Under the pieces are notes generated by a model. The model was not told where the DNA came from. It saw only the letters and a program-made list of their open reading frames with translations, and did no database searches. A program made the position numbers and the translations under genes. DNA of 64,000 nt from Malachius bipustulatus (taxonomy: Eukaryota; Arthropoda; Insecta; Coleoptera; Melyridae): NCBI GenBank assembly GCA_910589415.1, contig OU342633.1:34292210-34356209 (forward strand), read 5' to 3'. Within the stretch, counting starts at the first letter, position 1. Each line of letters opens with the position of its first letter. Below are positions 9,597 to 50,686 of this stretch, in pieces.

Positions 9597-9700
9597 CATA
9601 ATCACAGCATTTAAGTAAGCACATCTCAGGATTTAAATTATTGATTGACAATTACTTCGGAGATTATTTAAACAAAGATCAAATCGATATCGCAGTCAGT
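9597..9700 (+). promoter_or_regulatory. Cassette A core promoter
   Basis: A TATTTAAA box at 9665-9672 lies about 32 bp upstream of an arthropod-type initiator, TCAGTC, around 9696-9701. The resulting 5' leader would be about 30 nt to the ATG at 9728. The motif CATAATCACAGC at 9597-9608 and an AT-rich block TTAAATTATTGATTGACAAT at 9635-9654 recur upstream of the other cassettes. Function is inferred from position and conservation. Confidence 0.6.
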
Positions 9701-9727
9701 CGCTCTCTAGATCTCCGCCAAGAAACC

Positions 9728-10512
9728 ATGGGTGCTTTGATCGTCTCCAAGTTCCTCCGCTACTTAACCACCTTAGCTGGTATGTGGCCTTATAGATCAG
9801 AAAACAACATTCTTACACGCATGTATAGGATATACTCTAATATCCTTCGTGCCTCTTTGTTGCTCATCATCACTACGATGATAATTGACGTTCCAAGTTT
9901 GGCGAAAAGAGAACCTGGAAGACTTGGCGACCAAGTTGGTTTGATTCTTCTTCTTTCCATCAGTCTTTTCAAGCATCATAAGTCGAACAATGAAGGATTC
10001 CATTATTTGATCTTCGAAGCCGAGAAACAGAATGAAGCCATGGTGAGTGCTACTGGTGTGGTGAGGAGGATTTATGAGAAACATGCAAGAAAGATAACAA
10101 TTATGCATAGACTGTTAACAGTGTGTGTCTTCTCTACTGTTTCTATATATTCAATCGATTTCTATCTCGATGCAGTTAAATATGACCCTGATGCGAGGGA
10201 TGAAAATAATTTAACCATCGCTACAAAAAAACTTGTTATATTTAATGCTTGGTTGCCCTATGATAGTGACGATTATTACATCTTCACAAATATATGGTAT
10301 GAGTATTTACTCATTGTCATGACTCTTATAGTGTACGCTGCTGACTGTGTGTATATTGCACTTGTTTTAAATTGCCTATGCGATATAAAAATCATCAAGT
10401 ATTATTTTGAAAATTATGACAGTGTTAGTGTTGTTGTGGAGAATCGAAAGAGCAAAGATCTTGCGTATTATAAAGTTGTTTGGTGCATCCAAAAGCATCA
10501 AAAGGTCATCAA
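9728..10512 (+). CDS. Odorant receptor exon 1, cassette A
   Basis: This exon codes for the N-terminal 261 residues of an insect odorant receptor (7tm_6 family), a membrane subunit that pairs with Orco to form an odour-gated channel. The reading frame opens further upstream at 9641. I choose ATG 9728 (MGALIVSKFLRYLTT) because it aligns with the starts of cassettes B to E and because cassette B has a stop in the upstream stretch. Hydrophobic segments lie near residues 35-58, 68-84, 126-150 and 190-218. Motifs shared with the other cassettes include GRLGDQVGL, FNAWLPYDSDDYY and KVVWCIQKHQKVIK. The exon ends in phase 2 at a consensus donor, CAA|GTAAGT. Roughly 55-60% identical by eye to C-E, and much closer to B. 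Confidence 0.87.
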
Positions 10513-10570
10513 GTAAGTGGAGCGTTTAAAAAAATTTAGAGTTTCATTGAGTTAAATTTTAATGTTTCAG

Positions 10571-10670
10571 GGACATTGCACTCCTAGACGTGACTATAAG
10601 GAGTATCATGATGGCGGATTTTTTGACAAGATCGTTACAGCTCGCTTCCACTGCTATGATTATCTTAACG
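10571..10670 (+). CDS. Odorant receptor exon 2, cassette A
   Basis: The acceptor TTTCAG precedes 10571. One base completes the codon split by intron 1 (58 bp), and 33 codons follow, starting DIALLDVTIRSIMMADFLT and including RSLQLAS. The exon ends in phase 0 at ACG|GTAAAT. It should hold the start of TM5 or TM6. No 3' exons were found between here and cassette B; the next compatible acceptor seen is at 44861. Confidence 0.82.
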
Positions 10671-11740
10671 GTAAATTTATTTATTATTATAAGCTTGAAG
10701 TGATGATAAATCAAATAATTTCTTGCACCAATCAAAGAGGCGTTACAAATGAGATGAAAAAGTATATTCTTTAATGTTCTGTTAAATAAATGTCAACCCA
10801 AGTCAACACACAGTTTCCTGCAACATTATTTTTTCGTTCTAATTGCCTGAAATAATCAGAAATCCAGGTTCACAAAAACAGATTGTTAAACGCAGTACAA
10901 GTAGGTACTTACGTTTATTTGTTTTTGTGAAGCTGGTCAAAGTGTGCTGTTCGATTTAAGAAGCCATTTAATATAATTTTTCCTTCACTTCACGAGTCCG
11001 AAGCCATTTTTTCGGAAAGTCGATGTGCTTTTCTCTCAAAAAATGCAAACAATTTTTCTTAAGTACGGCCCTGTTTCCTTGATTTACAGTTCTATAGCAA
11101 TAGGCTATCGCGTAAATTCGCAGTACCTGAGTTTTTGAAATGATTTCAAATGAATTTTGAGGAATTAGAAACAATTGATACGGCAATATTGAAAATCGAA
11201 GTTTTGCTAGGTACAAAGTTCTTACTTATACCTTAGTTTGTCAAGCTGGTCGAAGTGTGCCATTCGATTTAAGAGGCTCACTTCACAGCCTTTTTCTTGT
11301 ACATACTTATCGAGTCCGATGTCGTTTTTTTCCGAAAGTCGAATGGAAAATGTGCTTTTTTGTTTAAAAATGTGTAAACAAGTTTTCTTCAAGACGGCCC
11401 TGGTTCCTAGGTTTAAAATTCCGGCAATAGACCATCCCATAAATTCGTAGTAGAACAGTTTTTGAAGTGATGTAAAATGACCATTGAATATACTTTACGA
11501 ATTCGAAACCGTGTTTTTTCTTTGAAGGTAGATTTTTCAATTTTCCGATATTGAATTTGAAGTGCCTCAGAAGAAGAGTGTTTCTGCTTAGATTTATTGG
11601 ATTTCATGAAACCGTTGCAAACATATCGTTTGTAAAATTAAAGCCCTAACTTACCTACAAAACACCCTGTATCTTCGTACCTGTTGGCAATAAAATGTCA
11701 TAGACTTTCTCTTTCATTAAAAATTGTATACATCGAGTAT
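10671..11740. other. Intercassette DNA with a duplicated block of about 280 bp
   Basis: Two imperfect direct copies lie at about 10928-11200 and 11232-11510. Both contain GAAGCTGGTC/CAAGCTGGTC, AGTGTGC, a GAGTCCGA block, TACGGCCCTG/GACGGCCCTG and AAATTCG. An AACACCCTGTATC near 11662 resembles the end of a TACAGGGTGT-type element. None of the short open frames here is convincing. No receptor 3' exon is visible. Confidence 0.5.
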
Positions 11741-12354
11741 ACACAGGGTGTATCTTTAAAATATTGTGAAAAAATTTAAATACAGATTTGTGAGTCAAAA
11801 ATAAACAAAGAGTTTTCTATTAACGTATGTCCGGAAATGCATCGTTGTTGAGATACAGGGTCCAGTTTCCAGTTTTTTGAAGATATCTCGAGACTCGTTT
11901 AAGATACGACAGAACTCAGTTTTTGTTCATATCATATCATTTTGAAACAAAAGCAACTTTTTCAATACCAACTCTGTTTTTTTCGTGTGGCATTTTCAGA
12001 AATCTTAGGATTGATCGAAGTTTTTTGCCCTTCCTTATCCGACATATGTTTTGAAGCATCCAAAGCGAGTTTTTCATCTTAAATGGTCTTTTTTTATTGA
12101 AAACAGCTCACGTTAGCAATTATGACCAGGAGTACCTTTTTTTGTGTAGAAAGTATCGGCGGTTAAAAAGCGTTTTGAAAATGTCAATTTGCCCAATGTC
12201 GTAGATATTAGAATCTCCGCCACTGGCGTATGAAAAAAATTAGTTATCATTGAAAAAATTGCTAATATCAGCTCAATGCATCTCGAACGGTTCTCGAGAT
12301 ATCTAAAAAAAAACAGGAACAATAATATTTCCGATTCTTCTCAATGAACGTTCC
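11741..12354. mobile_element. Probable remnant of a CAGGGTGTATC-type inverted-repeat element
   Basis: Begins with CACAGGGTGTATCTTTAAAA, like the termini of several elements in this window. Internal text such as GAGATACAGGGTCCAGTTTC is noncoding. No matching right end was found, perhaps because the LINE that follows truncated it. Confidence 0.35.
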
Positions 12355-12723
12355 GTTAATGGTTTATTTTTAACGATTAAGATTACGATTGTGTGTACAC
12401 CTCGCTGTGGTGCTCCTTCTTGAATATAGTTTTTCTGGTGAACCAAGTAAAATTTTGTTTCAAATTAATTGCTAACGTGTACTATACTACTTGTGAGAGT
12501 GTTTCGCCATCTTCTGTACCTGAAGTGAGCTATCCAAGTTGGCTAATTTCTGACGGATACATAATTATTTACTCGAGCAATTCAAGAAACCATTGAATTA
12601 TTTCTCTTGTTGTTATCATTATTCGTACCAACCTCGTATCCTTATCGGGTGACGTTGATATCAGCCTGTGTTTTGAAGTTCAAGTCCGAAGTCAGCTGAT
12701 CATTGTTGTTGTTTACATTCACC

Positions 12724-13593
12724 ATGCCTAATTATTGCTCGATTTGTGACAGTGCCATAACACCTACAACCCCATCTGTTAAATGTAATGGATTGTGCAG
12801 GAAATCATCGCACATAAAGTGTTTGAGCCTTGATGAAGTTGAACTTAGATCTCCGACCTTCCAAACCAACTGGAGATGTCCGAATTGCGTCAGACCAAAA
12901 ATTCCCTCCCAGATATCCATAATAGAACAAGCTATGAAGACACAGTTTGAGACGTTCAAGTCCACCATTATGCAGGTGATTTCCCTGGAATTTTCTAAGA
13001 TTAATAGCAGGCTGGACGCATTGGAGATCAATGTTGGTACAATGAAGAAAGAGTTGAGTGAGCTGAAAACGACTACGTCGGCTGATAAGCACGAGAGTAA
13101 TCCATCATCGGGAGCAGGGCTTGGAGTAAATGTTGATGACTTGGTTTCCGAGATCAGGGATCGCAATCAGCGATGTTATAATGTGATCTTATTCAACATT
13201 CCGGAGTCAAATGCCGTATCCTCACAGGGTAGAGTGTTGGAAGATCGGGATAAAATCAACGGGATCCTGGCACCTCTGGGATCCTTCAATCAACCTAAAA
13301 AGGTAATACGTATCGGTTCTGTTAGTGTAAATAAAATTAGACCCCTGAAGATTACCTACGAGACCGAAAAGGAGGCAAGAGATGTTTTGCGTTCAAACAA
13401 GCGGAGTGCTGACAGGGAACATCACTTTCACGCTGATCTTACCGCAGCCCAACGTAAGACGGTTAGAACTGTTGTCCAGGAGTTCCGTGACAGGATAGCG
13501 AAGGGGGAGCAGGACATTGTCTTGAAATATCGAGATAACATCCCTTATATTATTAAACAAAGGAAGACTGGTTCAGTAGAGCCAAAGAACTAA
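12724..13593 (+). CDS. LINE ORF1 protein with PHD-like zinc finger
   Basis: A 289-residue protein if translation starts at ATG 12724 (ACCATGCC context); an in-frame ATG at 12703 would add seven residues. The N-terminus has a PHD-type Cys/His pattern: CSICDSAI, then KCNGLCRKSSHIKC and WRCPNC at about residues 4-57. A helical region follows (about residues 70-115), rich in heptad-like hydrophobics. The C-terminal half (NVILFNIPES onward) looks like the RRM-like plus C-terminal fold of LINE-1-type ORF1 (Transposase_22). Such proteins bind element RNA. The frame is open throughout, although the element lacks reverse transcriptase. Confidence 0.75.
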   Translation: MPNYCSICDSAITPTTPSVKCNGLCRKSSHIKCLSLDEVELRSPTFQTNWRCPNCVRPKIPSQISIIEQAMKTQFETFKSTIMQVISLEFSKINSRLDALEINVGTMKKELSELKTTTSADKHESNPSSGAGLGVNVDDLVSEIRDRNQRCYNVILFNIPESNAVSSQGRVLEDRDKINGILAPLGSFNQPKKVIRIGSVSVNKIRPLKITYETEKEARDVLRSNKRSADREHHFHADLTAAQRKTVRTVVQEFRDRIAKGEQDIVLKYRDNIPYIIKQRKTGSVEPKN

Positions 13594-13607
13594 CTATTGC
13601 CCAACAA

Positions 13608-14127: not shown

Positions 14128-14133
14128 AATAAA

Positions 14134-15606: not shown

Positions 15607-16392
15607 ATGAGTGCTTTGATCGTCTCCAAGTTCCTCCGCTACTTAACCATCTTGGCTGGTCTTTGGCCTTACAGATCAGACAACAAGTTCCTTACACGTA
15701 TGTATAGGATCTACTCTAATATCCTTCGTGCGTCTTTGTTACTTATCATCGTTGCGATGATAATTGACCTTCCAAGTTTGGCGAAAAGAGAACCTGGAAG
15801 GCTTAGCGACCAGGTAGGTTTGCTGCTTCTTCTTTCTATCAGCCTTTTCAAGCATCACAAGTCGAACAATGAAGGATTCCATTATTTGATCTTTGAAGCC
15901 GAGAAACAGAATGAAGCGATGGAAAGTGCTACTGGTTTGGTGAGGAGGATTTATGAGAAACACGCAAGAAAGATAACATTTATGCATAGACTGTTATCAG
16001 TGTTTATCGGCTCCACTGTTTTGTTATATGTCATGGATTTCTATAACGAAGCAAGTAAATATGATCCTGATATGAGCGACGAAGACAATTTAACCGCCAT
16101 CGCTACTAAAAGGCCTGTTTTGTATAACGCTTGGTTGCCCTTTGACAGTGACGATTATTATATCATGACAAACATGGTTTGAGTATTTACTCTTAGTCAT
16201 GATTCTTATAGTTTATGCTTCTGACTGTACCTACCTTACACTTATTTTAAATAGCTTGTGCAATATAAAAGTTATGCAGTATTATTTTGAAAATTTTGAC
16301 TGTTTAAGTATTGTTATGGGGAATGGAAAGAGCACGGATCTTGCTTATAATAAAGTTGTTTGGTGCGTCAAAAAGCATCAAAAGATCATGAA
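15607..16392 (+). pseudogene. Odorant receptor exon 1, cassette B, frameshifted
   Basis: Closest relative of cassette A. The frame opens at ATG 15607 (MSALIVSKFLRYLT) and is intact to about residue 190. There, around 16174, the sequence ACAAACATGGTTTGAG replaces ACAAATATATGGTATGAG of cassette A. The 2-base deficit puts a stop at 16180-16182. The correct frame resumes at once (from about 16199) and runs to the normal end, GTGCGTCAAAAAGCATCAA, and the donor GTAAGT at 16393. There is no other disruption, so this is a recent null allele, a young pseudogene or an assembly error. Confidence 0.82.
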
Positions 16393-16449: not shown

Positions 16450-16549
16450 GGATATTACACTCCTAGATGTGACTATAAGAAACATCATGATGGCGGATTT
16501 TTTGACAAGATCATTGCAACTCGCTTCCACTGCTATCTTTATCTTAACG
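16450..16549 (+). CDS. Odorant receptor exon 2, cassette B
   Basis: Same structure as in cassette A: acceptor TTTCAG, one completing base, 33 codons starting DITLLDVTIRNIMMADFLT, then ACG|GTAAAT. It is open, although the first exon of this cassette carries a frameshift. Intron 1 is 57 bp. Confidence 0.78.
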
Positions 16550-17734
16550 GTAAATTTCTTCATTATTAAGAGTTTGAAGTAATGCTAAATAAAAAAATCA
16601 ATCATTATTTTAAATCAAATGAAAGAATCTATTCCTCGATGTGCTGTAAATAAACCTTTCCAATTTTCTCAATCCCCCTTATTCAATACACAGCTTCCCG
16701 GCAATCATGTCGAAATCAAAATTATTTTTAAAATTTTTCTAATCGCGCGTGAGTTGTGGGAATTTTTTATTATAAAAGGTGCTGAGCATAACCTATAATG
16801 ATTCCACCAAAAGAGAAGGTTGTTATTTATCTTCATATCTTTATTATGCTCACTTTATCAAGGCAATTGAGACCCTCGTCCGGCGTGAAGACCAGAGAAA
16901 ATTTGCCAAATGTTAAATTTAAAAAAAGCTGTATAATTTTCGAGGGCCATTATTCAAATAGGGTTAAAATTAATAAAATTTTCAACTAAACTTTAGAATA
17001 ATTTTAGTTTTCCGCTCATGAGAAATATTTAATCAATTAAGAACTTCTCAAGTCTTTCAAAGCTTGGACTGATGGTCTTGACGGAACTACCATTTTCCTA
17101 CTGAGAAAATCGGCTGAAGCTTCTGAAAATTCCACAAGAGAGTTAATCTTCGATGTGCCTTTCCTTTACACTTTACTTGATTCAGTTATTTAATACACAG
17201 CTTCCTGGCAATCTTATCGAAACCAAAATTATTCTTAAAATCCTTTCTACTTGCGCGTGAGCTGTGGAAAAATCGGAAGATAGGACTGTCTGACCATGAA
17301 TATGATCATTGGACTGATCATAAAAGAAACATTTCATAAATAATTTTAAACGTTTTTTCACCGAGGGTATTTTCATCACAATCATTTTTTCTACCTCTTT
17401 GGCGTTAACTTAAATAAAACTCTACTGAAAAAACTAACTGAAGCTCCTAAACTTCCAAAAGAGTGTTAATTTTATTTAGACGACAATTTCAAAAAAGAGA
17501 TTCATGGGTGTTTTCAAAAATAGATGTCTAAATTATTAAGAATAACCTCAACGCTCTAGTAAAATTTTAGCCCTTCTATTATTTTTCTCTCTAATTATAA
17601 TCATATAAATTCTTGTATACCTAAATAGAAAAACAATCAATATAGTAACGTATTGCTTAATAATTTCATCCCCTGTCCTATAATCTCAATCCTCGCTGAA
17701 GAAATTAACAACGGATTCTATATTCGCTAAGACG
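16550..17734. other. Spacer between cassettes B and C
   Basis: Only 1.3 kb separates the two cassettes, with no receptor 3' exon. A spacer motif, CACAGCTTCCYGGCAATC, occurs twice here (16689-16706 and 17196-17213). The same motif lies upstream of D (26435) and E (38401). It marks the boundaries of the duplicated unit. The 63-codon frame at 16798-16989 has no recognisable features. Confidence 0.55.
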
Positions 17735-17894: not shown

Positions 17895-18673
17895 ATGGGT
17901 GAAAAAATTATCACCAAGTTCCTTCGCGTCTTAACCACGATAGCTTGCATTTGGCCTTACCAATCGGAAAACAGAATCTTCATGAGCATGTATAAAATAT
18001 TCTCCTACTTTCAACGAGTGTCTTTACTGATTATGATCAACTGTTTTATATTCTACATACCATATTTGGCAAAGAACGATCCGGGACGAATTGGCGATCA
18101 AGTGGGTTTGATTCTTCTTCTTCTAATCAGTCTTGTGAAGAATCAGAAAGCTAATACTGAAGGGTTTCGTTACCTGGTTTTGGAAGCTTACAAACAGAAT
18201 GAAGCAATCGAGAGAGCTTGCGATGCAGTGAGGGAGATTTATGGGAGATATGCAAGGAAAATCAAAGTTGTGCATATCATGATAACATTTTTCGTCTGGA
18301 GTACGACTTCCTTGTATGTCATGGATTTTGTTTTTCTGGCAATAAAAAATAATCCAGACTTTAAGGAAGAAAATAATTCAACGATTGCTGCTAAAAAACT
18401 TCTTTTATTTAACGCTTGGTTGCCGTTTGACAGTGATGATCATTATATCTTAGCGAATATATGGTATGAGTATATGCTGTTGGTTATGCTTTCAATAGCC
18501 TTTTCTTCTGACTGTATTTATCTGGCTTTGATTGTGAATTGCCTGTGCGATGTAGAAATCATCAATTATTATTTTGAAAACTATGATGAATTGGATCTTG
18601 TGGAGGGTGACGAAAAGAGCGATGCTTACTATAAGGTTGTTTGGTGCATTAAAAAGCATCAAAAGGTCATCAA
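17895..18673 (+). CDS. Odorant receptor exon 1, cassette C
   Basis: Codes for 259 residues plus two bases of an insect odorant receptor (7tm_6). Start MGEKIITKFLRVLTT at ATG 17895 is common to C, D and E. Likely membrane segments: residues 38-58, 70-82, 126-150 and 190-217. Conserved stretches are NDPGRIGDQVGL (61-72), LFNAWLPFDSDDHY (171-184), CLCDVEIINYYFE (216-228) and KVVWCIKKHQ (247-256). The frame is open and ends at a consensus donor in phase 2. About 93% identical by eye to cassette D. If joined to the shared 3' exons it would give a 396-residue receptor. Confidence 0.88.
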
Positions 18674-18730: not shown

Positions 18731-18830
18731 CGATACGCGATGTTTAGATGAAGTTACCAGGGATATAATGATGCTGGATTTTCTAACAAGATCGCTGCAA
18801 CTTGCCTCGACAGCTATTTACATTTTAACG
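18731..18830 (+). CDS. Odorant receptor exon 2, cassette C
   Basis: Acceptor TTTCAG, then C, which completes an Asn codon where A and B have Lys, then 33 codons including DEVTRDIMMLDFLTRSLQLA. It ends in phase 0 at ACG|GTAATA. Identical in structure to the second exons of D and E. Confidence 0.83.
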
Positions 18831-19914
18831 GTAATATTTAATCATCAACAAAAAAGGAATTAAAAAAAAATACAAAGATAGCGGAAATAAGTAATTGTTT
18901 GAGATATATTTATAATTTTTCTCTTTTCTCGCTTACTTATAATTGTTAAAACAGGGTTAAACACGCATCGTTATAGAATTTTCAAATTTATTCTAGAAAC
19001 TGGAAGTTCTCGTTTTATTTTCTGATAAATTATTAGATACCTCAAAATTAGTAAATTAGTAAATTAGTCAGCTGTTTTATAGGCCAGTAGAATTGTCCTC
19101 AAAAATGTCCTCAGTTTGCGTTACCATGCACAAATTCTATACTATACAAATTCGATAGAGGACCTTGAAGAGATGTTAAATCCAAATTTGCAGCACTGTG
19201 TGATTTTTTTTTACCAAGTTATGCAAAAAAAAAGGTTTTTTTTTATATCGTTACAAATATCTCGGTTCCTATCTATTGCATATAAGCAAATGACATATCA
19301 TTCTCTTCGTTATGGAATTACCTACATTTTTTATACCAATATTTTGTTACACTGATAATAAAAATAATATTGAGGTTTAAAGTTAAAAAATTGTCTTTCG
19401 AATAAGGTTTTTTGCAAATTTCTTATTTTTTTGCATTTTAACGCTGGAAAGCCCTTGTAGTATTTAGAACAGTCAATTACCGTTACGCTGATTGGTCAAT
19501 CATGAAAATCCGATAAACGAGTCTCTGGTAATCCACCTGCGAAATTGTGCATGTCAAAAATTGGTATTTTATCCGGTTTTTTTTTTTCGTTGATTTTTTT
19601 ATCTTTTGTGAGTGGAATTGTAGTGGGTATCTATTTTATTCATGAAAATGAGTTTTTGTGAGATATTGAGATCTGTCAGTGTATGTTTTCCCGGTGCTAT
19701 CACGTGCGTTCTTAGCTGCGTGAAAACTTCTAGTCACCGTGACTAATTACACGGTATATTATTTATATTATTATATTTAGACAATTTATATTAACGCGGA
19801 AAACACGTCACCTATATTTTTCTCAAAAACTTGGAAGGGTCAGAAAAAACTGAGTTCTACTCTTCAACCAGAAAAAAATCTGCAACAAATGTTGTAATAT
19901 TTTAAATCAAAAAA

Positions 19915-20771
19915 GCCGAACCACGAACTGATTGCGTCAACAGAAAAGAAGTCTTTATCGCTCTCTATGGCGGAAACAACGAAAAATCCTACGACGACTT
20001 TCTTTTCAACTTTTTCTCCCGCATGGGACAAAAGACAAAATCGGATCTTACTTATTTACCACACACAGCACAGTTATATTTCAGCAATATTGAAGAAAGA
20101 TTGCACCGAAATATTTTAAATGTTTACACAACATTGCACAATCTCTCTGCAACGTTGCAGCAAGATTGCAGCAACGACTAAATGTCCAAAACTTGCAATA
20201 TTTCAATGAAATATTGCAGAAATATTGCTGAGAAATATTGTGGCAATCTTTCTAGAAAATATTGCAGAAATATTTCAGAAATGTCTGTTTCATTTTTTGC
20301 ATTTTAAAGACGACCTATCACAATGTACTACAATTATTGATGTTCATTTGATTTAGTAAATGAATATTACCACCATCAGAGTGAGCTGCTGAGCAGCATT
20401 CATTTTGAACTTGTTACCAAATGCAAACATGGCTTGGCAATATCTTGGAAGCGGAAACCTGGGGCTGGAAAATACATAAATGTGGATTATTACCCGTAAT
20501 GAGCACTAAAGATCCAATTCCATCTTCACATCTCAAGGTTATTTCGTGTGCATGCGCAAAAGATTGCGGGACAGCTTGTGGCTGCAGAAAAGCAGGACTG
20601 AAATGCTCTTCAGTTTGCAAGAACTGCTCAGGTCAAAGTTGTTTAAACGTCGCGAAAATCACTGACAACAGCAGCGATGATGAAGACATATATTTGCTAA
20701 CCACGGTTCCCCTGCCTCGCTATTATAGCCGAGCTGAGAATTCAGACAAAATTTATTGTGGAATAGTATAA
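19915..20771 (+). pseudogene. Decayed Cys-rich CXC-like C-terminal domain of unknown element protein
   Basis: Two colinear parts resemble one protein family that I know only as an uncharacterised, widely scattered arthropod type. The first (about 19925-20085) reads ALYGGNNEKSYDDFLF and SDLTYLPHTAQ. The second is the 116-codon frame at 20421-20771, with QTWLGN, WGWKIHKCGLLPV and a CXC-like cluster, CACAKDCGTACGCRKAGLKC, followed by CKNCSGQSC. Just upstream of 20421 the same frame has an in-frame stop. Between the parts lies an expanded AATATTGC-rich block. Function is unknown; CXC clusters often bind DNA, but that is not shown here. Confidence 0.5.
20086..20290. repeat. AATATTGC-rich block
   Basis: The 8-mer AATATTGC and its complement GCAATATT recur many times, often as ATATTGCAGAAATATT. 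The block sits between the two halves of the Cys-rich pseudogene. Confidence 0.65.
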
Positions 20772-21656
20772 GCAAAGAAAACTAGGAAGAACCTGATGGC
20801 TCGCTCATCGAAACGTGCCAAAAAAAAAAAAAATTATAATCTTGACTCTTGTAAAAGCACAGTATTGCCTTGATTTAACAAAAACTTACTAATAATAATT
20901 GTACTTTGTTTAACTACTGATTATTAGTTGATTTTTCTTTAAAAAAAAATACACTCATATATGTTTTTTACTTCAAATTTAGCAACTAAGCATGCAATAA
21001 ATAAAGTATTCAAAATAAAGATTATTTACATGTGTGTTTTGCAATTTAAAATATTGAATATTTATGAACAATAAACGTAGAAATGTTGCACATTGAATGT
21101 AAATAAAACGAATGCTCAATTTTTCATGCGAGTTTTCGAGTCGTTGACGAATGTATTCGTCAATTCAAAATTGTACATCACCGACATGCACATGTTTGCG
21201 CGTAGATTGCCGGAGACTGGATTATTGGATTTTCAAGATTGACCTACCGCTGCACAGGTAATTGACTATTCTTCAAAAAACTACTTGGGCTTTCTAGCGG
21301 TAAAATGCAGAAAAAATAAGTAATTTGCAAAAAACCTTATTCAAAAGACAAACGTTTAACTTTAAACCTCAATATTATTTTTATTATAACTGTAACAGAA
21401 ATAATATTTGTATAAAAAATGTAGATAATTTTATAGCGAAGAGAATGATATGTAATTTACTTATGTGCGATAGATAGAAGCCGAGATATTCGTGAAAATA
21501 CAATAAAAAACGCTTTTCTGCATAACTCGGTAAAAAAAAAATCGCACGGTGCTGCAAATTTGGATTTAACATTTCTTAATGATCCTCTATCGAATTTCGT
21601 ATAATACAAAATTTGTGCATGATAACGCAAACTCAAAATACCATTCTACTGGCCTA

Positions 21657-25960: not shown

Positions 25961-26993
25961 TGAAAAAATAACTAATAAATTCATATTTTCGTGACTATAC
26001 TTTATAGAAACAAATTTCAGGTCCGTATTTAAAAAATTAAGTTAATGATGGCAGAGAAAATTCGAGACGCGTAACCCCTTACATATTTTGATAGAAAATA
26101 AAAAGTGGCCATGAGTAGTGCTTTCAGTTTTTCGATATCTTTTCAAACAAACCATCTTGAAGGAGATTTAAAATTTTACAAATTTCAGTTTTTTCAAAAA
26201 CTATTGGAGACAACTAATTTTTTTCTCAGATTTTTATTGTTCTTTAAATTAGCAGCTTTGCCCCAATTTCACCGAGTCCCTATCTCTTCTAGTTTCTGAG
26301 TGTAACTAGAATTTAACTCTTATTGTGAATTTAACCTGTGTATTGTGGGCCAGGTGAATTTTGGAAAATAATTGTTCGTGATCTGTCAAAACCTCGATGT
26401 GCCTTTCCATTTTTCTTGATTCAGTTATTCAGTACACAGCTTCCTGGCAATCTTATCGAAACCAAAATTATTCTTAAAATCCTTTTACTAGCGCGTGATC
26501 TGTGGATATATCTGAAAATAAGACTGTTTGACCAGGAGCTGATCACTCGACGTTTCATAAAAGAAACATTTCAAAAATAATTTTCAACGTTTTTTCACCG
26601 AGTGTATTTTCACCACAATCATTGATTTTTTTACCTCTTTGGCGTTATGGCGTTAAATGAAATAAAACTTTACTGAAAAAAACTTACTGAGCTTCTAAAA
26701 CCTCCAAAATAGTGTTAATTTTATTTAAATAACAATTTCCAAAAAAGAGATTCATGGGTATTGAGAAATTTTTTAAATGAGATATTTAAATCATAAAGAA
26801 TAACCTTCAACAGTCTAGTAAGAGTAACATTAGCCCTTCTATTATTTTTCTCTCTAATTATAATTATATAAATTATTGTATAAAAAGAAAAACAATCAAT
26901 ATAGTACCGTATTTCTTAATAATTTCATCCCCTCTTCTTTAATCTCTATCCTCGCTGAAAAAATTAAAGACCGATTCCATATTCGCTAAGACG
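25961..26993. other. Upstream flank of cassette D
   Basis: From about 26020 this is alignable with 38043 onward upstream of cassette E (shared TTAAAAAATTAAGTTAATGA). It includes the spacer motif CACAGCTTCCTGGCAATC at 26435-26452. No gene seen. Confidence 0.5.
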
Positions 26994-27986: not shown

Positions 27987-28086
27987 CGATACGCGATGTT
28001 TAGATGAAGTTACCAGGGATATAATGATGTTGGATTTTCTGACAAGATCGCTGCAACTTGCCTCGACAGCTATTTACATTTTAACG
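27987..28086 (+). CDS. Odorant receptor exon 2, cassette D
   Basis: Acceptor TTTCAG; completing base C (Asn), then 33 codons including DEVTRDIMMLDFLTRSLQLA; phase 0 donor ACG|GTAATA. Same protein as exon 2 of C. Confidence 0.83.
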
Positions 28087-30274: not shown

Positions 30275-30278
<4 letters not shown>

Positions 30279-30286
30279 TCATCAAG

Positions 30287-31714: not shown

Positions 31715-31990
31715 AGGTGTCAAAAACACAGTGAGTGAGTCGAATGATAAACAAACTCTTGTTTTAACTATCCATAATAATGATAGAGATTTGATGTTAT
31801 ATATAAATATAAGAGATTTTTATGCTGATTTAAAAAAAAATTGGGTATTCTCATCTGGTGTTTTGAAATGGGGTGAATGGTCTGTTTTTGTGCAGAATCG
31901 ATGTACTTGTCATGTGTGTCAACTAGTATCAGAATTATTGCAACAGAGACTCCCAGGTATGTTGATGATGAACTACATAATATGTAAAAA

Positions 31991-37959: not shown

Positions 37960-39046
37960 GTGTAATTTCAAAAGTCAGAAAAGAAAAAGCTGAATTGAAT
38001 AAATTAAGTGCACCATTTCCTCCTAAATCAAGAAAAAAATGTCAGGTCCTTATTTAAAAAATTAAGTTAATGATGACAGCGAAAATTTGAAACATTTTAG
38101 TTAGAGTTGGGAATTTAAAATTCCAAATATTTAAGTTTTTTTAACTTTTTTGGAAAACTATCGCAGACAACTGAATTTTTTCTCAGATTATTATTGAGCT
38201 TTAACTTTACAACTTTTCTCCAATTTAACCGAGTTCGTATCTTTTCTAGTTCCCGAAATCCTAATGATGTAGCTTAAATTTGACTCAGCCTGTATATCGT
38301 AGGCAGGTGAATTTTGAAAAAACCACTTTTTCATGATTTGTGAATTACTCGATGTGCTGGTATTAAAACCTTTCTCTTTTCTCTATTCATTTATCCAATA
38401 CACAGCTTCCTGGCAATCTTATCGAAACCAATTTTTTTGTAAAGCTTATACTAATTGCGCGTGAGTGGACGAAATGCCTAAAAATAAGAGACCAGGAGCT
38501 GATAATCGGACATTTCATAAAAGAAACGTTTCACCAATAATTTTAAACATTTTTTTGGCCGAATATAACATCATCTGATTTTTACCTCTGGCGTTAAATT
38601 AAATAAAACTTTAAACAAAAGTTTGGAAAAATTTGAGTTTACCGCTCATGAGAAATCATTTCAAGAGCTTTTATACTATAGTCTTCCAAAACTTAAGACC
38701 ATCAGTCTGGTCTTGACTGCTACTTTTTCGTACTGAAAAAACTAGCTGAAGCTCCCAAAACCCAACAAGAGAGTTAATTTTATTTAGACAACAATTTCCA
38801 AAAAAGAGATTCATGGGTATTAAGAAATTTTCAAAATTAGATGTTTAAATTATCAAGAATAACCTTCAAAGCTCTAGTAAGATTAGCCCATCTATTGTTT
38901 TTCTCTCTAATTATAATCATATAAATTATTGTATAAGTAGAAAAACAATCAATATAGTAACGTATTGCTTAATAATTTCATCCCCTGTCCTATAATCTCA
39001 ATCCTCGCGGAAGAAATTAACAACCGATTCCATATTCGCGAAGACG
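37960..39046. other. Upstream flank of cassette E
   Basis: From 38043 alignable with the flank of cassette D; includes spacer motif CACAGCTTCCTGGCAATC at 38401-38418. No gene seen. Confidence 0.5.
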
Positions 39047-39206: not shown

Positions 39207-39985
39207 ATGGGTGAAAAAATTATCACCAAGTTCCTTCGCGTCTTAACCACGATATCTTGCATTTGGCCTTACCAATCGGAAAACAGAATCTTCATGATCA
39301 TGTACAAAATATTCTACTACTTTCAACGAGTGTCCTTATTGATTATGACCAATTGTCTCATATTCTACTTACCATATTTGGCAAAGAACGATCCGGGACG
39401 AATTGGCGACCAAGTGGGTTTGATTCTTCTTCTTATAATCAGTCTTGTGAAGAATCAGAAAGCTAATACTGAACGGTTTCGTTACCTGGTTCTGGAAGCT
39501 TATAAACAGACTGAAGCAATCGAGAGAGCTTGCGATGCAGTGAGGGAGATTTATGGGAGATATGCAAGGAAAATGAAAGTTGTGCATATCATGATAACTT
39601 TTTTCGTCTTAAGTACGACTTTCTTGTATTTCACGGATTTTGTTATACTGGCAGTAAATAATAATTCAAATTTGAGTGAAGAAAATAATTCAACGATTGC
39701 TACTAAAAAACTTCTTCTATTTAACGCTTGGTTGCCGTTTGATAGCGATGAGCATTATGTCTTAGCGAATATTTTTTATGAGTATATGATTATGGTTATG
39801 TTTTCAATAATTTTTTCTTCTGATTGTATTTATCTGGCTTTAATTGTGAATTGTCTGTGCGATGTAAAAATCATCAATTATTATTTTGAAAATTTTGATG
39901 AATTGGATTTTGTGGAAGGTGAAGAAAAGGGCGATGCTTACTATAAGGTTGTTTGGTGCATCAAAAAGCATCAAAAGATTATCAA
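39207..39985 (+). CDS. Odorant receptor exon 1, cassette E
   Basis: Open first exon of an insect odorant receptor (7tm_6), 259 codons plus two bases, closest to C and D but more diverged (about 88% by eye). Distinct changes include ISCIWPYQ, FVLSTTFLYFTDFVILAVNN and IFYEYMIMVMFSIIF in the third and fourth membrane segments, where ligand contacts are likely. Conserved GRIGDQVGL and WLPFDSDEHY remain. This cassette is the nearest to the shared 3' exons. The joined gene is 779+100+102+156+54 nt, 396 residues plus stop, a normal length for the family. Confidence 0.9.
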
Positions 39986-40042: not shown

Positions 40043-40142
40043 GGATACACAATTTTTAGATGAAGTTACTAGGGGTATAATGATGTTGGATTTTCTGACA
40101 AGATCGCTGCAACTCGCCTCGACAGCTATTTATATTTTAACG
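40043..40142 (+). CDS. Odorant receptor exon 2, cassette E
   Basis: Acceptor TTTCAG; completing G (Lys), then 33 codons including DEVTRGIMMLDFLTRSLQLA; phase 0 donor ACG|GTAATA at 40143. Intron 2 to exon 3 is 4.7 kb and full of repeats. Confidence 0.86.
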
Positions 40143-41200
40143 GTAATATTTAATCATCAAGAAAAAAGTAATTAAAAAAAAATCAAAAACTAAAAAATAT
40201 AACGGAAATAATAGCTAAAACGGAGCTAGATTTACAATTTGTCTCTTTTCTTACGTATAATATACTATAAATCTCAAAATAAGCTTTAAACATGCATCGT
40301 TGCATAATTTTTAAATTTATTTTATAAATAGAAAGTTTTTATTTTATTTTCTGATAAATTGGTGGGTACCCCCAAATTGGTAAACCAATCAGCTGTTTTA
40401 GGCTAATTTTCCCTACAGTAATGCGACCTATAATACATAAAATATAAATTTTCTCTGAATTTTCCATAAATTTCCCCCCTCTTATAGACTACGTTTTTAT
40501 TTTTAGGTAATATTTTGTTTTGCTATCAGACCATTTTAGACCAGACTAGATTAATATAAATAAACGAGAAATTGGAAAACACAAATTTAAGAAAAATGTT
40601 ATCAAAAATAAACATTTTACGTGGCTTTAAAGAAAATATAGTTTTTTAATTGAAAAGCTAATGATATATTTTTTTATTAGAAACGATTTGCAACCCCCCC
40701 CCCCCCCTATAACCCCAGCAAGGGACTCTTTTTTCAATGATATATATTAATTCAATTATATTAATTGAAAAAAAATCAACTGCATAAACTTCTCACGTTT
40801 TAACAGTCAAGCTCCAAGCCAGGTTGGTCTTGACTACGTTTCTTATTCAATTTAAATACAAAAACTGAAATCCAGGCTGAAATAGGGCCCTGCCCTATTG
40901 CATTCAATTGTATGGGAATATACCTACATCTACAATAATAATGCCGTGATAACGTCGTGATTTTCAGTTTTTCTGTGAAATAGTTGGTATTCTGCGAAAT
41001 ACCAGTACATTTGACTTATGGATCTTTGGCAATCTACCTTCTTTCGGCGACGTTGGTTTACGTTGGGAATTGATGATACTTCAGCTAAGTACTGAAATGA
41101 ATCGCACCTAGGTAGGATGATAAGGAAATTATTTCCATCTCCCTCGTTAAATCAGCCCAAATCGAAAAAGCAAATAGTGCAAGCATTAGGTACGTAAATA
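40143..41200. other. Intron 2 of cassette E, 5' part
   Basis: Up to about 40430 it follows the sequence behind cassettes C and D. Beyond that, AT-rich DNA with a run of 14 C at 40693-40706. No gene. Confidence 0.45.
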
Positions 41201-44526: not shown

Positions 44527-44860
44527 ACAGTACCCAAGTAATTTGTATAATGTAGTTGGAATATGAGCATATGGGTCTAGGATAAGTTTCTTGTAATTAC
44601 GGGACCCGTCAGGGGTCATTCAAGAATATTATTGCTTTACCTTTATTCGCAACAAGGATGATTATGTTCTGGTTGGGATTGAGGTTTAGTGGGGCCAAAT
44701 ATGTTGCCAAAGAGAGTTTGGTGCCTTACAGAAGTCTAGGTGATTATAAGACGAATTTAATTGACAACATTTATTTATTAGAAGTCCTCTTATTCCTGAT
44801 TCAATATTTTGCGATGATCAACTGAAAGAGTTTAATATTAATAAAATAATTTAATTTTAG

Positions 44861-44962
44861 ATGCCATTCTCCTTACTTTATTGCTGGGCAGTAATATATT
44901 TCTGGTACATGAGCTATCTGGTATTTGTTTACTACTGGCATGGCAATGAACTGCGAGAAGAA
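44861..44962 (+). CDS. Odorant receptor exon 3 (shared)
   Basis: 34 codons in phase 0 after acceptor AATTTTAG, starting MPFSLLYCWAVIYFWYMSYL and ending VFVYYWHGNELREE. It holds TM6 and the GNE motif that precedes the intracellular loop in insect odorant receptors. Ends at GAA|GTAAGT in phase 0. Only one copy was found in the window, while exons 1 and 2 exist five times. Confidence 0.83.
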
Positions 44963-45191
44963 GTAAGTAGGTAATCAATTCATAATATTTTTGAGTACGT
45001 AAAGTATTTCGTTAGTGATAAAAAGTCTCGATTTTATGATTAATTTCATAAAGTTCCAGAAGGATATAATAATCTTCAACTCTAGCACCATCTCCATTTT
45101 TATATTTTTTTCCGCAATAGATCTCTCTTTCTAATTTTTTATGACATTTTCTTAAAGTTCTAAATCAACTTTTTAGAGTTATAACTTTCAG

Positions 45192-45347
45192 AGCATGGCG
45201 ATTTCGGATGCAATCTACAGAAGCAACTGGTACGAACAGGACGCAGCGACCAAGAAAATCCTTCACATTATTATGATGCGTTCTCAGCGATGTCTTTCTC
45301 TCCATGTTGGATCGCTCTGTGACGTATCCAATGAGATTCTTGTTAAG
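45192..45347 (+). CDS. Odorant receptor exon 4 (shared)
   Basis: 52 codons: SMAISDAIYRSNWYEQD, then IMMRSQRCLSLHVGS and SNEILVK. The SxxxxxAIYxSxWYE motif and the RSQRPL-like motif are hallmarks of the C-terminal third of insect odorant receptors. I prefer the acceptor CTTTCAG before 45192 because the GNE-to-SNWY spacing then matches the family. An alternative acceptor before 45177 adds five residues in frame. Ends at AAG|GTATTT in phase 0. Confidence 0.86.
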
Positions 45348-45801
45348 GTATTTATTAATTATTATCAAATTGTTTGGTGATAAACTCTAGTGGATGTCGG
45401 CTTAGTCAGTATAACAAACTTTTTCATTATTAGTCCAATTTTTGCTAATAATAATAATTGTTAACATGCAATAATATTGCCCTTTTGAATAATAATAACA
45501 ATAATGATTACCTGGCATACCCATTTTAGTTCCTTCGTGGGCTGTTTCAGTCAGCACGCAGTCAGGCACCTTTCAGCATATGATTTCTTGCGCATTATTC
45601 TTCCTCGTGCCTTATCCGCTCAACGTATTTGTGCTATCATCAAGGAAATTTTGATCTTGCTTACGGCCGCTCGGAATGTCTCTACCGATGCCATCCCATA
45701 TCATTGGCGTACACACTTCCTGGTGGTCTTCTACGTTCTATTTTACCTTAGAAGGTCTATTTTTCCTTCTAGCAGAGTACGAGCTGTAATAAACTATACT
45801 T

Positions 45802-46734
45802 TCATTTCGCATTATGTGACCAAGGTACGTCAATTTTCTGATTTTTATGGTCATCAGTTCCCCTCTCGGTCTTCATCCTTCTTGGCACCTCCTCATTTGT
45901 TACGTGTTCTGTCCATCCAATCTTCAGAATTCTTCGCATTATCCATATCTCGAAACCCTCTATACATTTGCATGTTACCTCCGTGAGCGTCCAGGCTTCC
46001 ACTCCATATAATAGCACAGAATAAACGTAGCCCTTAATCATCCTCTTACGCAGATACAAGCTTAGGTTATTGCTGCTGAACACATTTCTCATTCTCAGGA
46101 ACACAGATCTCGTCTTTTCTTTTCGTTGACGAATTTCAAGGAAGTGATCCCAGCTGTCATTAAGAGGGCACCCTAGGTACAAGATCTGTTTCACCCGTTT
46201 CAGAATTGTTCATCTTATATTCAAATTCGGTGTCATGTCACTGTCTCTGCTCACAACCATGTACCTCATCTTTGATGCATTCAATTCGAGGCCATATTCT
46301 GCTCCCACTTCCATCACTCTATGTATTAATGTTTGTAGTCCTTGTGGTGTGTGTGATAGTATCACTGTATCATCGGCATATCTAATGCTATTTAGAGGCG
46401 TTCCATTTACAAATATGCCTCCTTGCTGGCCGTCTAGTGCCTCACGAAACAGTTCTTCGGAATACGAATACATATTAAAACGCAAAGGTGACAAAACGCG
46501 TCCCAGGTTTACTTTATCATAAGGTCTCACAGCCGCCGTCTGACCACAATAAAAGCCTGATATTATTTTCAGATCTCTTCTATCTATCCCTGTTTTTCTT
46601 AGGATGCTTATTATTTTCTCTTTCTTTACTCTATCAAAGGCTTCCCTAAAATCTATAAAGCACGCATGCACGTCGTAGTTTACGTCTCTGCACCTCTGTA
46701 TTAACACTTGTATGGTGAATAGGGCTTTTCTCAT
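45802..46734 (-). pseudogene. RTE reverse transcriptase remnant
   Basis: The first piece contains CFIDFREAFDRVKKEKII (motif A) and IRYADDTVIL (motif C). After a frame break at about 46200, GYVYSVLLYGVEAWTLTE and FEIWIMRRILKIGWTEHVTN show the C-terminal part. All are typical of RTE-clade LINEs. Broken, nonfunctional. Confidence 0.75.
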
Positions 46735-47305
46735 TCCCAGACTTTCTCTGAATCCAAACTGCGTTGGTCTTATTTCAGCTTCTATTTACTTGTATATTCG
46801 TCGGTGGATGATTTTTAGAAAGATTTTGTGTGCATGGTTCATGGCTCATGAGACTGAAGGTTCTACAGTCTTCACATTTTCTTGCGTTAAGTTTCTTAGG
46901 AATCGTGACAAATGTTGATTTCATCCATTTTCTGGGGATTGCTCCCGTCTTATGGATTCTGGTGTAAAGTCTACATAGTTTGTCTAGTGCTCTTATCTTG
47001 TCTTTGAAATATCTTCCTTTTTTGTTTCATTATCTTTTCAGCCTTAGGTTTATATCTGCAGCCAGAGGGTTGTGATCAGATGGTACATCCGCTCCAGGAT
47101 AGGTTCTCACTGACTTTATGCTATTGCGGAATCTCTTGTTAATAGTAATTATTTGATTTCTGATAATTTCGTCAGACGTATCTCCTGGAGCTTTCCAAGT
47201 GTATAATCTTCACGGTGGCATTTTGTAGAATGTATTTCCTGCTATCAGGTTTTTCTCCTGGCAGAACTGAAACATTCTATGTATATCATCTGTCATTATA
47301 AACAC

Positions 47306-47563
47306 CTACGCCCTTAAATAGTCGCCGACTATTTCTTCTTGTTTTCCTTTACCAATTTTAGCATTAAAGTCGCCCATTACTATAGATATTTCATCTTCTG
47401 TTGTGTATTGTATTGCAACCTCTACCTCTTCGTAAAATATCTCAACTTCCTTATCTGTAAGTCCGCTATGTGGAACGTATATTTCGATGATGTTTGTTTT
47501 CATCGGTTTTGTATTTAGTTGTACCATAGCTACTCTATCTGAGATAGGAAGGAAGCATAGTAG
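47306..47563 (-). pseudogene. RTE endonuclease remnant, distal part
   Basis: Contains FLPISDRVAMVQLNTK, IIEIYVPHSG and VMGDFNAKIG, the last being the GDFN motif of APE-type endonucleases. It is separated from the proximal part by the palindromic insertion. Confidence 0.72.
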
Positions 47564-49541
47564 TGGAGAGGGTCTGTCAAAAAAAAAAGGCTCCATCCGC
47601 CTTGGACTCGAGAATTTTTTTTTATTTTTTTTCATGAAGTTGGACCTCCTCTTCATTTTGGTGGCATTTTCAAAAATTTAATCGACGCCCTGGCGGAGAA
47701 ATGTGCATGCGAAGACATCGGCAATGGTTTTTTTCACATATCTCGCTTAATTCAACTCTGAGCATAGTAAATATCTGTCAAAAAATGAAGAGCTATCGAA
47801 GACGCGTAATTTGAAATTTGACTGGTCCAAATCGGTCAAACAGTTCTCGAGATATCGCATTTTCAATTTTAAGGCCCTTTCTTCAGGGTTCCGCCGCGGT
47901 GCGAATACACCGCCGTCCGTTTTCACGTTGTTTGCATGGAAAAAATCGACTTAGGGACTTAATTTTTTTTTTCATCGACAGACAGCAGTGTCCTTAATGA
48001 TGCCTGAAATTTTGAAGTCGCTATCTCGATTAGAGGGGGGAGGGGGAGGGGAAATCATAATTAAAATTCAAATTGCTGTAACTTTCGCTTATATTAGGGC
48101 CTCGGGCCCAACCAATGGGAGATGACACTTTGGAATGCCTACTTTAAAATGGTATTTTTTTTTCGATTCCGCCAATATTGGCAAGATGCCCGCAGAAAAA
48201 CCGATTTCCCTCTCCCCTTTTTTTTCTTAAAACTGGTGTTTTGCCATGAAAGAAGGGGGTGGGAGTAAAAATTTTTTCGTCATCACACGGGAATTTTTTT
48301 TATCTTTGATTTGAGCCCCAGTAGACCTCGATCGGACCATTATTAAGGTCACAGGGTCACCAAACGCGTTTGGTCTTGTAGAATGGCAAGGATTAGGGTT
48401 AGCGGATTCCGCTACCCGGCATTTTTTAGGGCTAAGTGTCCCCTTTCAAGATTTTCTTACCCCATGTCGCTATCTCAATTAGGGCCTGCACGCGGACGTG
48501 ATATGTAAACCAATTAATCTAGCGTGTGTGTCTGTGAGAGAAGAGAGAAAGGAGAGGGAGCGCTAAACTCCGCGCCCGGCTCTCGCTGCTGCGCGGCTAG
48601 ATTAATTGGTTTACATATCACGTCCGCGTTCATGCCCTAATTGAGATAGCGACATGGGGTAAGAAAATCTTGAAAGGGGACTCCTAGCCCTAAAAAATGC
48701 CGTGTAGCGGAACCCGCTAACCCTAATCCTTGCCATTCTACAGGACCAAACGCGTTTGGTAACCCTGTGACCTTAATAATGGTCCGATCGAGGTCTACTG
48801 GGGCTCAAATCAAAGATAAAAAAAATTCCCGTCTGATGACGAAAAAAATTTTACCCCCACCCTCTTCTTTCATGGCAAAAAACCAGTTTTAAGAAAAAAA
48901 GGGGGGAGGGAAATCGGTTTTTCTGCGGGCATCTTGCCAATATTGGCGGAATAAAAAAAAAAATACTATTTTAAAGTAGGCATTCCAAAGTATCATCTCC
49001 CATTGGTTGGGCGCGAGGCCCCAATATTAGCGAAAGTTATAGCAATTTGAATTTTAATTATGATTTCCCCTCCCGCTCCCCCTCTAATCGAGATAGCGAC
49101 TTCAAAATTTCAGGCATCATTGAGGACACTGCTGTCTGTCGATGAAATGAAAATTAAGTCCCTAAGTCGATTTTTTCCATGCAAAACACGCGAACACGGA
49201 CGGCGGTGTATTCGCACCGCGGCGGAACCCTGAAGAAAGGGCCTTAAAATTGAAAATGCGATATCTCGAGAACCATTTGACCGATTTGGACCAGTCAAAG
49301 TTCAAATTACGCGTCTTCGAGAGCTCTTCATTTAAGCTCTTCGACAGGATATTTACTATGCTCAGAGTTGAATTAAGCGAGTTATGTGCAAAAAACCCAT
49401 TGCCGATGTCTTCGCATGCACATTTCTCCGCCAGGGCGTCGATTAAATTTTTGAAAATGCCACCAAAATGAAGAGGGGATCCAACTTTATGAAAAAAAAA
49501 TCTCGAGTCCAAAGCGGTTCGAAAGTTAGACTCTCTCTACT
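47563..49541. mobile_element. 2-kb near-perfect palindrome inserted in the RTE LINE
   Basis: Two arms of about 950 bp (47563-48531 and 48596-49541) are inverted copies around a loop of about 65 bp. The right end read inward starts AGTAGAGAGAGTCTAAC; the left starts GTGGAGAGGGTCT. ATAGTA flanks both sides (47557-47562 and 49542-49547), and removing the insert restores the LINE frame, so it is a true insertion with a 6-bp duplication. No coding content. Confidence 0.8.
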
Positions 49542-49569
49542 ATAGTACCGATTTAGCGGTGACTGAATC

Positions 49570-49752
49570 CTACTCAGTTTTGATGGTTTTTGAAGGCTTC
49601 TTCTGAGTAATACCCGAGTATTTGTCCACTCGGCAGCTTCGTGAATTTGGCCACTCCATTTTGCTTATTCCCAGAAGGTTGATATTCAATCTTTTCATTT
49701 CTTGCACCACATTATTCGTTTTCCCGCCTCGTACAAGCTTCTTACATTCCAT
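49570..49752 (-). pseudogene. RTE endonuclease remnant, N-terminal part
   Basis: MKRLNINLLGISKMEWPNS followed by a Tyr-Ser-Gly motif is the usual beginning of the RTE endonuclease; the catalytic Glu position reads K here. About 60 codons survive before a stop. Confidence 0.72.
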
Positions 49753-50498
49753 GCTCCTAATCTCATCCTCATGCCTAGCCGGAAGAGTCTTAGCACCCCT
49801 TCCCCATTGAAGGGGGGTCCGGAACTAGGGGCCGTCTTTCGATTTCCAGTCATGATTCCCTGGGGAGTACAGTAGTTTCATGTTGCTGTCTGTACCGCAG
49901 TATCACAACCGATTGAGACATTATTAGTATGTCGTCTGTGGTTGTGTGATCACAATCCTTTGCTGCGTTTCTTTTGCTTAAGCACTGGTCCAGTAATGGA
50001 GTAGCTGCTGCTCTACCCCACGCTAGTTTTGGTCCGCCCCGAGTATTTAATTTCCTCGGTACAACCAATATCTGGGAGGAATTCCCCTATACGCCACCTG
50101 GGGAGGCTCCAGATGAGGTACTATGCAACCCCACGCTGGTGTTGCGCATTACTAAACGAATATATGACAGCTTACCACCTCACCTCAATATTTACACCAA
50201 TTACATGCAATGTTTTAAAACCAATTACAACCAATATGTTTTTCACTTTTTGGTTCCTTTTGGGCTACTTTTGGGCTACCCACAATTGTTTCATGTAATA
50301 AAGAACAAATATTTACAAAGATCTTTTTATGTTATCATCGTATCTGAAGATGGCAAGTATGTCGAAACTTGTCGGTGATAGTGAATCTCAAGAAGACAAA
50401 ATGAAAAGCGAGCAGACTTTTTCTTGTTTTCATTCATTAACAGTGAAAACTCTCCCATTACCGGTCATTATATTAATTATAAATTCTGATTGTTACAG

Positions 50499-50552
50499 AT
50501 CGCAAAAACGTTTTACTCCATGGTGACACTTTTCCAAAACGTCACCTCATGA
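50499..50552 (+). CDS. Odorant receptor exon 5 (shared, last)
   Basis: Acceptor TTGTTACAG precedes 50499. Seventeen codons, IAKTFYSMVTLFQNVTS, then TGA at 50550. The FYSMVTLFQN tail matches the end of TM7 in insect odorant receptors (compare the SYSYFTLL-type endings). Phase 0 agrees with exon 4. Intron 4 is 5.15 kb because of the RTE insertion. Confidence 0.85.
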   Translation: MAKTFYSMVTLFQNVTS

Positions 50553-50680
50553 ATATCACTTGGAATATTATTTCAAGAGCGTTACTGCTGTTAATCACGT
50601 CGCACGCTTTGTTGAATAATCACAATCAACGTGGAGATGCAAGGAGAATAAGCAAAGGAGTCCTGCTGCAGCTCATATTT

Positions 50681-50686
50681 AATAAA
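50681..50686 (+). promoter_or_regulatory. Polyadenylation signal of the receptor locus
   Basis: AATAAA 129 nt after the stop codon; the first such signal downstream on the + strand. Confidence 0.6.

Follow-up and report, generated by a model that had tools for sequence, protein, structure and literature searches.

A candidate odorant receptor locus of Malachius bipustulatus with putative alternative two-exon 5′ cassettes and one set of 3′ exons of different ancestry

Structure of the locus and its predicted products

We analysed a stretch of 64,000 nucleotides from the beetle Malachius bipustulatus (OU342633.1:34292210-34356209, in an assembly of 544 Mb and 52 contigs); this whole stretch is called the window, and its own numbering is used below. 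It contains five two-exon 5′ parts of odorant receptor genes, the heads A to E (9728-40142), and one set of exons 3 to 5, the tail W (44861-50552; Table 1). A previous reading of this DNA, made without database searches (the sequence-only reading), had proposed that the five heads are alternative 5′ cassettes of a single locus, and its exon borders proved correct to the base. All five heads retain an ATG and their donors (AA/GTAAGT and ACG/GTAAAT or GTAATA, the slash marking the exon border), the acceptors read TTTCAG, and these signals are the same as or close to those of three complete genes of the family, F, G and H, located downstream. The intron positions are equal and the splice sites clean in all five heads, as had been described; however, the phases assigned to all of them, 2 for intron 1 and 0 for intron 2, hold only for A, C, D and E. 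Head B deviates through a frameshift: in comparison with A, it carries a 2-base deletion near 16175 that breaks the frame and, elsewhere, an in-frame 3-base insertion. The other four heads are open and in phase, which agrees with the earlier count of open cassettes but lowers the proposed maximum of five receptors to four usable heads; the notion of a shared tail itself was not contradicted by the tests run. The likeness between heads is far beyond chance, with 48-88% identity over the aligned stretches in head-to-head tblastn and, among the matches listed, E values of 2e-76 or better. As previously estimated, the spacer between B and C is short (1,345 bp), and intron 2 would be very long (34.2 kb) if head A were joined to the tail.

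To classify the predicted products, heads A and E were each joined to the tail and compared with the Pfam family 7tm_6. Scores of 116 bits (A) and 119.5 bits (E) were obtained against a cut-off of 25.8, covering positions 57-313 of the 313 in the profile, whereas exon 1 alone gave no match in the case of A and a value below the cut-off in that of E (23.8 bits). Against chains of solved structure, the E product matched nine distinct receptor sequences, among them OR10 (8v00, E 8e-19), OR28 (8v3c, E 4e-10), and Orco and related chains (E 1e-8 to 5e-7); the alignments with OR10 and OR28 span the exon junctions. By these matches, the predicted spliced products of A and E are insect odorant receptors of the 7tm_6 family. 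As expected, a blastn comparison of head E with phage records gave no match. The predicted receptors have 396-398 residues, of which the last 103 are common to all. The head-tail junction follows residue 293 of 396 and lies within a hydrophobic stretch (289-316) that we take for transmembrane helix 6 (TM6), in a hydropathy scan that left some of the seven helices unresolved. TM6 lines the odorant pocket. The earlier division into a ligand-binding head and a channel tail is consequently too clean, since the junction falls inside this putative helix.

Table 1. Positions of the heads, the tail and associated features, in window numbering (continued downstream for the neighbouring genes)
Feature	Position	Strand	Remarks
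Motifs before head A	9664-9727	+	TTATTTAAA at -64, CAGTCG at -31
Head A	exon 1 9728-10512, exon 2 10571-10670	+	open, phases 2 and 0; exon borders checked to the base
Head B	exon 1 15607-16392, exon 2 16450-16549	+	frameshifted; from comparison with A
Head C	exon 1 17895-18673, exon 2 18731-18830	+	open; exon borders checked to the base
Head D	exon 1 27151-27929, exon 2 27987-28086	+	open; exon borders checked to the base
Head E	exon 1 39207-39985, exon 2 40043-40142	+	open; exon borders checked to the base
Motifs before heads B, C, D and E		+	B -61/-28; C and D -65/-34; E TAATTTAAA -65/-34
A/F/G-type start of intron 2 behind head B	16550-16652	+	sequence matches
G/H-type intron 2, 44 bp, behind head E	41038-41081	+	95 and 93% identity
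G/H-type 3′ end of intron 2 before exon 3	44532-44860	+	sequence match
Tail exon 3	44861-44962	+	phase 0; single copy
Tail exon 4	45192-45347	+	phase 0; single copy
Tail exon 5 with stop codon TGA	50499-50552	+	phase 0; single copy
3′ flank of tail	50553-50917	+	identity 96% to G, 92% to H, 78% to F
Gene F	65751-77960		five exons
Gene G	101436-110717		five exons
Gene H	169806-177910		five exons
Gene I	191019 to ~195.3 kb		five exons; more distant relative

Search for further tails

The flanks of the window were read for 50 kb upstream and 150 kb downstream; four further members of the family (F to I), each complete with five exons, were found within 131 kb downstream. Their exons 3, 4 and 5 measure 102, 156 and 54 bp, and intron 2 of F, G and H extends over 3.7-5.0 kb. 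Given that each of these genes has its own tail, one tail per head is the normal condition in the array, and heads A to D stand out. This could mean that every head has, or had, a tail of its own that escaped the search, was lost in the assembly or lies outside the stretch searched, but we consider this highly improbable. No strong copy of exons 3-5 was detected elsewhere in the 64 kb by tblastn (word size 2) or blastn (word size 7); the best non-self tblastn match to the tail, located 3′ of exon 5 (52056-52142), had an E value of 0.02 and only 10 in the profile search. That search used tail profiles (W, F, G, H and I; hmmsearch --max, six frames) and, in the window plus the 50 kb upstream, returned only the exons at 44861, 45192 and 50499, the best other fragments having E values of 0.17 and 0.14. 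In the same 50 kb, tblastn with heads A and E and with the tail gave nothing at E < 0.1. The window and the joined stretch of 264 kb are free of N, and C-type upstream sequence begins within about 100 bp of B, leaving no room for a B tail. Thus, the single copy of exons 3-5 and the absence of a 3′ exon from the spacer between B and C, both put forward in the sequence-only reading, were corroborated, and the translated search of the DNA between cassettes with exon 3-5 peptides that it had suggested revealed no missed copy.

Ancestry of the heads and the tail

Synonymous differences per site (pS) were obtained by the Nei-Gojobori method, and heads were compared with tails by Fisher tests. The tail differs from those of F, G and H by pS values of 0.111, 0.111 and 0.113; among these three genes, tails differ by 0.097-0.127 and heads by 0.111-0.152. 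In contrast, heads C, D and E differ from those of F, G and H by 0.53-0.59, and heads A and B by 0.24-0.33. The difference between head and tail was significant in the nine comparisons involving C, D and E (p 1e-11 to 2e-9) and in the six involving A and B (p 0.0005 to 0.03), the comparisons being mutually non-independent. Expressed as synonymous substitutions per site (dS), head E is near 1.0 (0.93-1.07) and the tail at 0.12. Gene I differs from E, A and F to a similar degree in the heads (pS 0.75-0.78) and in the tails (0.78-0.79, with tail W or F), which indicates that tails are not slow at synonymous sites. The noncoding sequence shows the same affinity: intron 3 of W matches those of F, G and H at 88-90% identity, and the last 330 bp of intron 2 match G and H in 89-90% of the aligned bases (81-82% in another alignment). 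Judged by synonymous and noncoding divergence, the tail belongs to the F/G/H clade of genes and is not native to the C/D/E heads, among them E, the last cassette, behind which it lies. In the tree of heads, C, D and E group together with 100% support, and A, B, F, G and H stand apart from them (96%); the order within C/D/E is unsettled (41%), and A joins F/G/H before B at only 60%. Support in the tree of tails is weak (55 and 67%).

The sequence of intron 2 suggests how such a combination may have arisen. Behind head B, the start of the intron matches those of A (10671-10719 with 16550-16598), F (to 16593) and G (102474-102521 with 16604-16652), and C/D/E-type upstream sequence starts at 16631, overlapping the last 22 bp of this match. 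At the other side, the C/D/E-type match behind head E ends by 40431, and F/G/H-type sequence runs, with interruptions, from 41038 through the end of intron 2, exons 3-5 and their introns to 51432. One of these interruptions, of about 3.4 kb, separates the 44-bp match at 41038 from the one that resumes at 44532, whereas in G and H the two lie only 6 bp apart. The C/D/E block is therefore flanked by the two ends of an F/G/H-type intron 2, the start behind B and the end before exon 3. Two stretches upstream of D (26006-26279) and E (37964-38256) that match intron 2 of G and H were discounted as proof of nesting; inverted copies of them occur inside intron 2 of G, and they may be a mobile repeat.

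C, D and E have a unit of about 1.7-1.9 kb in common, which runs from upstream DNA through both exons and 225-289 bp into intron 2; the one common to A and B covers about 1.3 kb and stops 49 bp into intron 2. Neither contains a tail, which favours duplication of heads alone over duplication of whole genes followed by four losses of the tail. C and D have a further stretch in common (21657-22596 and 28334-29248) that is only 75% identical and may be an older repeat. According to the history we propose, C/D/E-type cassettes, consisting of a promoter, exons 1 and 2 and the start of intron 2, would have come inside intron 2 of a gene of A/B/F/G/H type, multiplied there without a tail, and would now rely on the tail of another lineage. 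A different history is possible, although we think it somewhat unlikely: instead of cassettes entering an intron, the own tail of E may have been overwritten by gene conversion with F/G/H sequence. The tail is indeed closer to F/G/H than heads A and B are, and its 3′ flank, very similar to G and H and much less so to F, contrasts with intron 3, which is equally close to all three; this mosaic suggests exchange among the tails of the array. On the other hand, the F/G/H-type sequence between 41038 and 51432 would be long for a conversion tract, and an F/G-type intron 2 start is present behind B as well.

Selection on the heads

To evaluate whether the heads have been under constraint, we counted the changes unique to one head at positions where the reference heads agree, and compared them with a neutral expectation, either simple or weighted for composition and transitions. 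Head A (reference B=F) showed 17 synonymous and 25 nonsynonymous changes (p 0.002; 0.009 with the weighted expectation), head B (A=F) 27 and 44 (p 0.0035, weighted), and head C (D=E) 8 and 1 (p 2e-5; 6e-5 weighted); C and D together gave 16 and 14 (p 3e-4). By these counts, purifying selection is significant on three of the five head branches, those of A, B and C, although counts on terminal branches are blind to how much of the constraint predates the loss of a head's tail. Head B thus shows past constraint even though it is broken now. Given that the histories of heads and tail differ and that three of the five heads, tailless or with a foreign tail, nevertheless show purifying selection by these counts, descent may provide a separate argument for sharing. 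In 2000 runs of a neutral simulation, a branch of the length of A remained free of stops in 0.4% of cases, and branches such as those of C and D in 9.9-10.8%.

Head H (169806-170739; OU342633.1:34462015-34462948), counted in the same way, has 5 synonymous and 34 nonsynonymous changes on its own branch, and the ratio of nonsynonymous to synonymous substitution rates (dN/dS) for F-H is 0.97; we take this branch of a complete gene to be relaxed or diversifying. A head without a signal is therefore not shown to be dead, and for individual heads the test has little power.

Promoter motifs and splicing frames

All five heads are preceded by the motif T(T/A)ATTTAAA at -61 to -65 and by CAGTCG at -28 to -34, with a spacing of 31-33 bases, and the same pair precedes genes F and H. 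We call the first motif TATA-like and the second initiator-like, and we read the pair, from the motifs, as a putative core-promoter-like element of each cassette.

The frames of the possible splice products differ according to the junction used. In all six combinations of exon 1 of A, C or D with a second exon of C, D or E farther downstream, the frame is kept. In contrast, a join between second exons, from A, C or D to a downstream C, D or E, loses the frame, and a stop follows six codons on; from exon 2 of A into that of B, the stop comes 62 codons on, and head B is itself already out of frame. Retention of intron 2 in any of the five heads would add only 5-10 residues before a stop, and receptors cut at the start of TM6 in this way are unlikely to work. 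Since joins between second exons break the frame, the choice of head would most likely be made by the promoter, with frame-broken by-products being removed. The exon phases are equal in the complete genes of the array, so that trans-splicing or read-through might also connect the heads with an F, G or H tail; this we regard as scarcely credible, as ordinary cis-splicing to the nearest exon 3 is enough.

Proposed use of the heads

The single tail, the phases, the donors, the four open heads, the selection on A, B and C, and the motif pair agree with the core of the sequence-only reading, that the heads are spliced to one tail; the use of the heads, their promoters, the splicing, the function and the nesting history are inferred. 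We consider it likely that this is one odorant receptor locus in which alternative two-exon 5′ cassettes, those of C/D/E type nested in an intron 2 of A/B/F/G/H type, share one tail. Heads A, C, D and E, and formerly B, would be joined at the phase-0 junction to the one set of exons 3-5. Each cassette would have its own transcript start, a transcript from promoter A would hold all the later cassettes, and exon 2 of the chosen cassette would skip these to reach exon 3. Our judgment is evenly balanced on a more specific proposal: that two head lineages, about one synonymous substitution per site apart, occupy one transcription unit; that the C/D/E heads, having lost their own tail here, multiply within an intron of the other lineage as tailless promoter-exon 1-exon 2 cassettes and work only with a borrowed TM6-TM7 tail; and that the phases would allow in-frame mixing of heads and punish double inclusion.

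Several observations weigh against a tail shared by all these heads. Head B is broken by its frameshift. Head D (reference C=E), with 8 synonymous and 13 nonsynonymous changes, is borderline (p 0.048; 0.09 with the weighted expectation), and head E, which adjoins the tail, gives no significant result (C=D=A; 7 and 18, p 0.35, weighted); with a stricter reference that includes A (C=E=A for D), the counts become 1 and 9 for D and 2 and 0 for C. The second exons of later cassettes are competing, frame-breaking acceptors, so that skipping over up to 34 kb would be required. Both motifs were looked for before the complete gene G and are missing there; hence, a gene of this family can do without them. 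Regarding the history, the uneven 3′ flank also counts here, and the tail, being nearer to F/G/H than heads A and B are, is not cleanly an A or B tail either, and conversion from F/G/H tails or the loss of a further head must be assumed.

From these results, it could be argued that only E (or only A or B) works and that the other heads are 3′-truncated relics of tandem duplication whose decay is pending. Truncation is a frequent outcome for duplicates in tandem arrays; the frameshift in B, the lack of clear constraint on D and E, and the short branches of C and D, which in the simulation stayed open under neutrality in 9.9-10.8% of runs, would fit this explanation. However, the counts for C, for C and D together and for A speak against it, as does the retention of donors in all five heads. 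Moreover, on this view E, which lies beside the tail, should be the more constrained head, yet its constraint does not exceed that of A, B or C. We therefore consider it unlikely that the other heads are relics, and favour their joint use with one tail.

Relation to known loci

The architecture, alternative 5′ parts with common 3′ exons, is already known, and the mixed ancestry of head and tail, with five heads from two old lineages before one foreign tail, seems to be the new element; in the open-access literature searched, as far as its available text goes, no description of shared-tail receptors with such ancestry was found. The comparisons below are likewise limited to the available parts of the cited articles. 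In Drosophila, Gr39a, Gr28b, Gr23a, Or46a and Or69a have this architecture (PMC2204066; PMC3011837). The 5′ exons of Gr39a have repeatedly been gained, lost and frameshifted, a likeness to the present locus (PMC2204066); however, Gr39a is a gustatory receptor gene, its heads have one exon, which would spare it the competing internal acceptors of the two-exon heads found here, and in the text available its heads and tail are not reported as different lineages, as they appear to be here (PMC2204066). Or46a and Or69a are odorant receptor genes with alternative 5′ parts, as here, and theirs have been shown to be alternatively spliced (PMC2204066; for Or69a, PMC3011837); unlike the present locus, they are called more conservative in structure, with the Or69aC exon degraded or lost in some species.

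Among beetles, shared-tail odorant receptor loci have been proposed from gene order (PMC6720082; PMC8956072). DponOr2a/b and DponOr36a/b of Dendroctonus ponderosae have mutually exclusive N-terminal A exons and seemingly common B-E exons; they resemble our locus in their common 3′ exons but have two one-exon heads each (PMC6720082). In Rhyzopertha dominica, RdomOR9, OR10, OR2 and OR27 are also described with a shared-exon architecture, and no such locus could be confirmed by transcripts (PMC8956072). The heads of RdomOR9 and OR10 share only the terminal exons D and E, with three isoforms in RdomOR9, and were proposed from gene order, as here; they differ in having fewer heads, and the available text describes no test of head and tail ancestry (PMC8956072).

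If our interpretation is correct, a lineage of receptors can lose the part that forms the channel and persist as a cassette of another gene, which would be natural evidence that odorant-tuning and channel parts are exchangeable. Annotation may label heads like A to D as pseudogenes or fragments.

Other features in and around the locus

Between D and E, on the + strand, the region 30269-34543 contains two long open frames of 481 and 851 amino acids; the latter matches Pfam RVT_1 at 1e-32, the former has no Pfam match, and the region looks like a recent non-LTR (long terminal repeat) retroelement. Behind head C, an insert of about 2.4 kb (19148-21597), bounded by inverted repeats, interrupts the homology between C and D. 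An open frame of 297 amino acids (12700-13593, + strand) has a sub-threshold match to a PHD finger (23 bits; cut-off 24) and is possibly the first open reading frame (ORF1) of a retroelement. Intron 4 of the tail holds a near-perfect, foldback-like palindrome of about 1.9 kb (47625-49499) with arms 85-96% complementary. Downstream of the locus, on the + strand, an open frame of 645 amino acids (60135-62072) matches RVT_1 at 1.6e-21.

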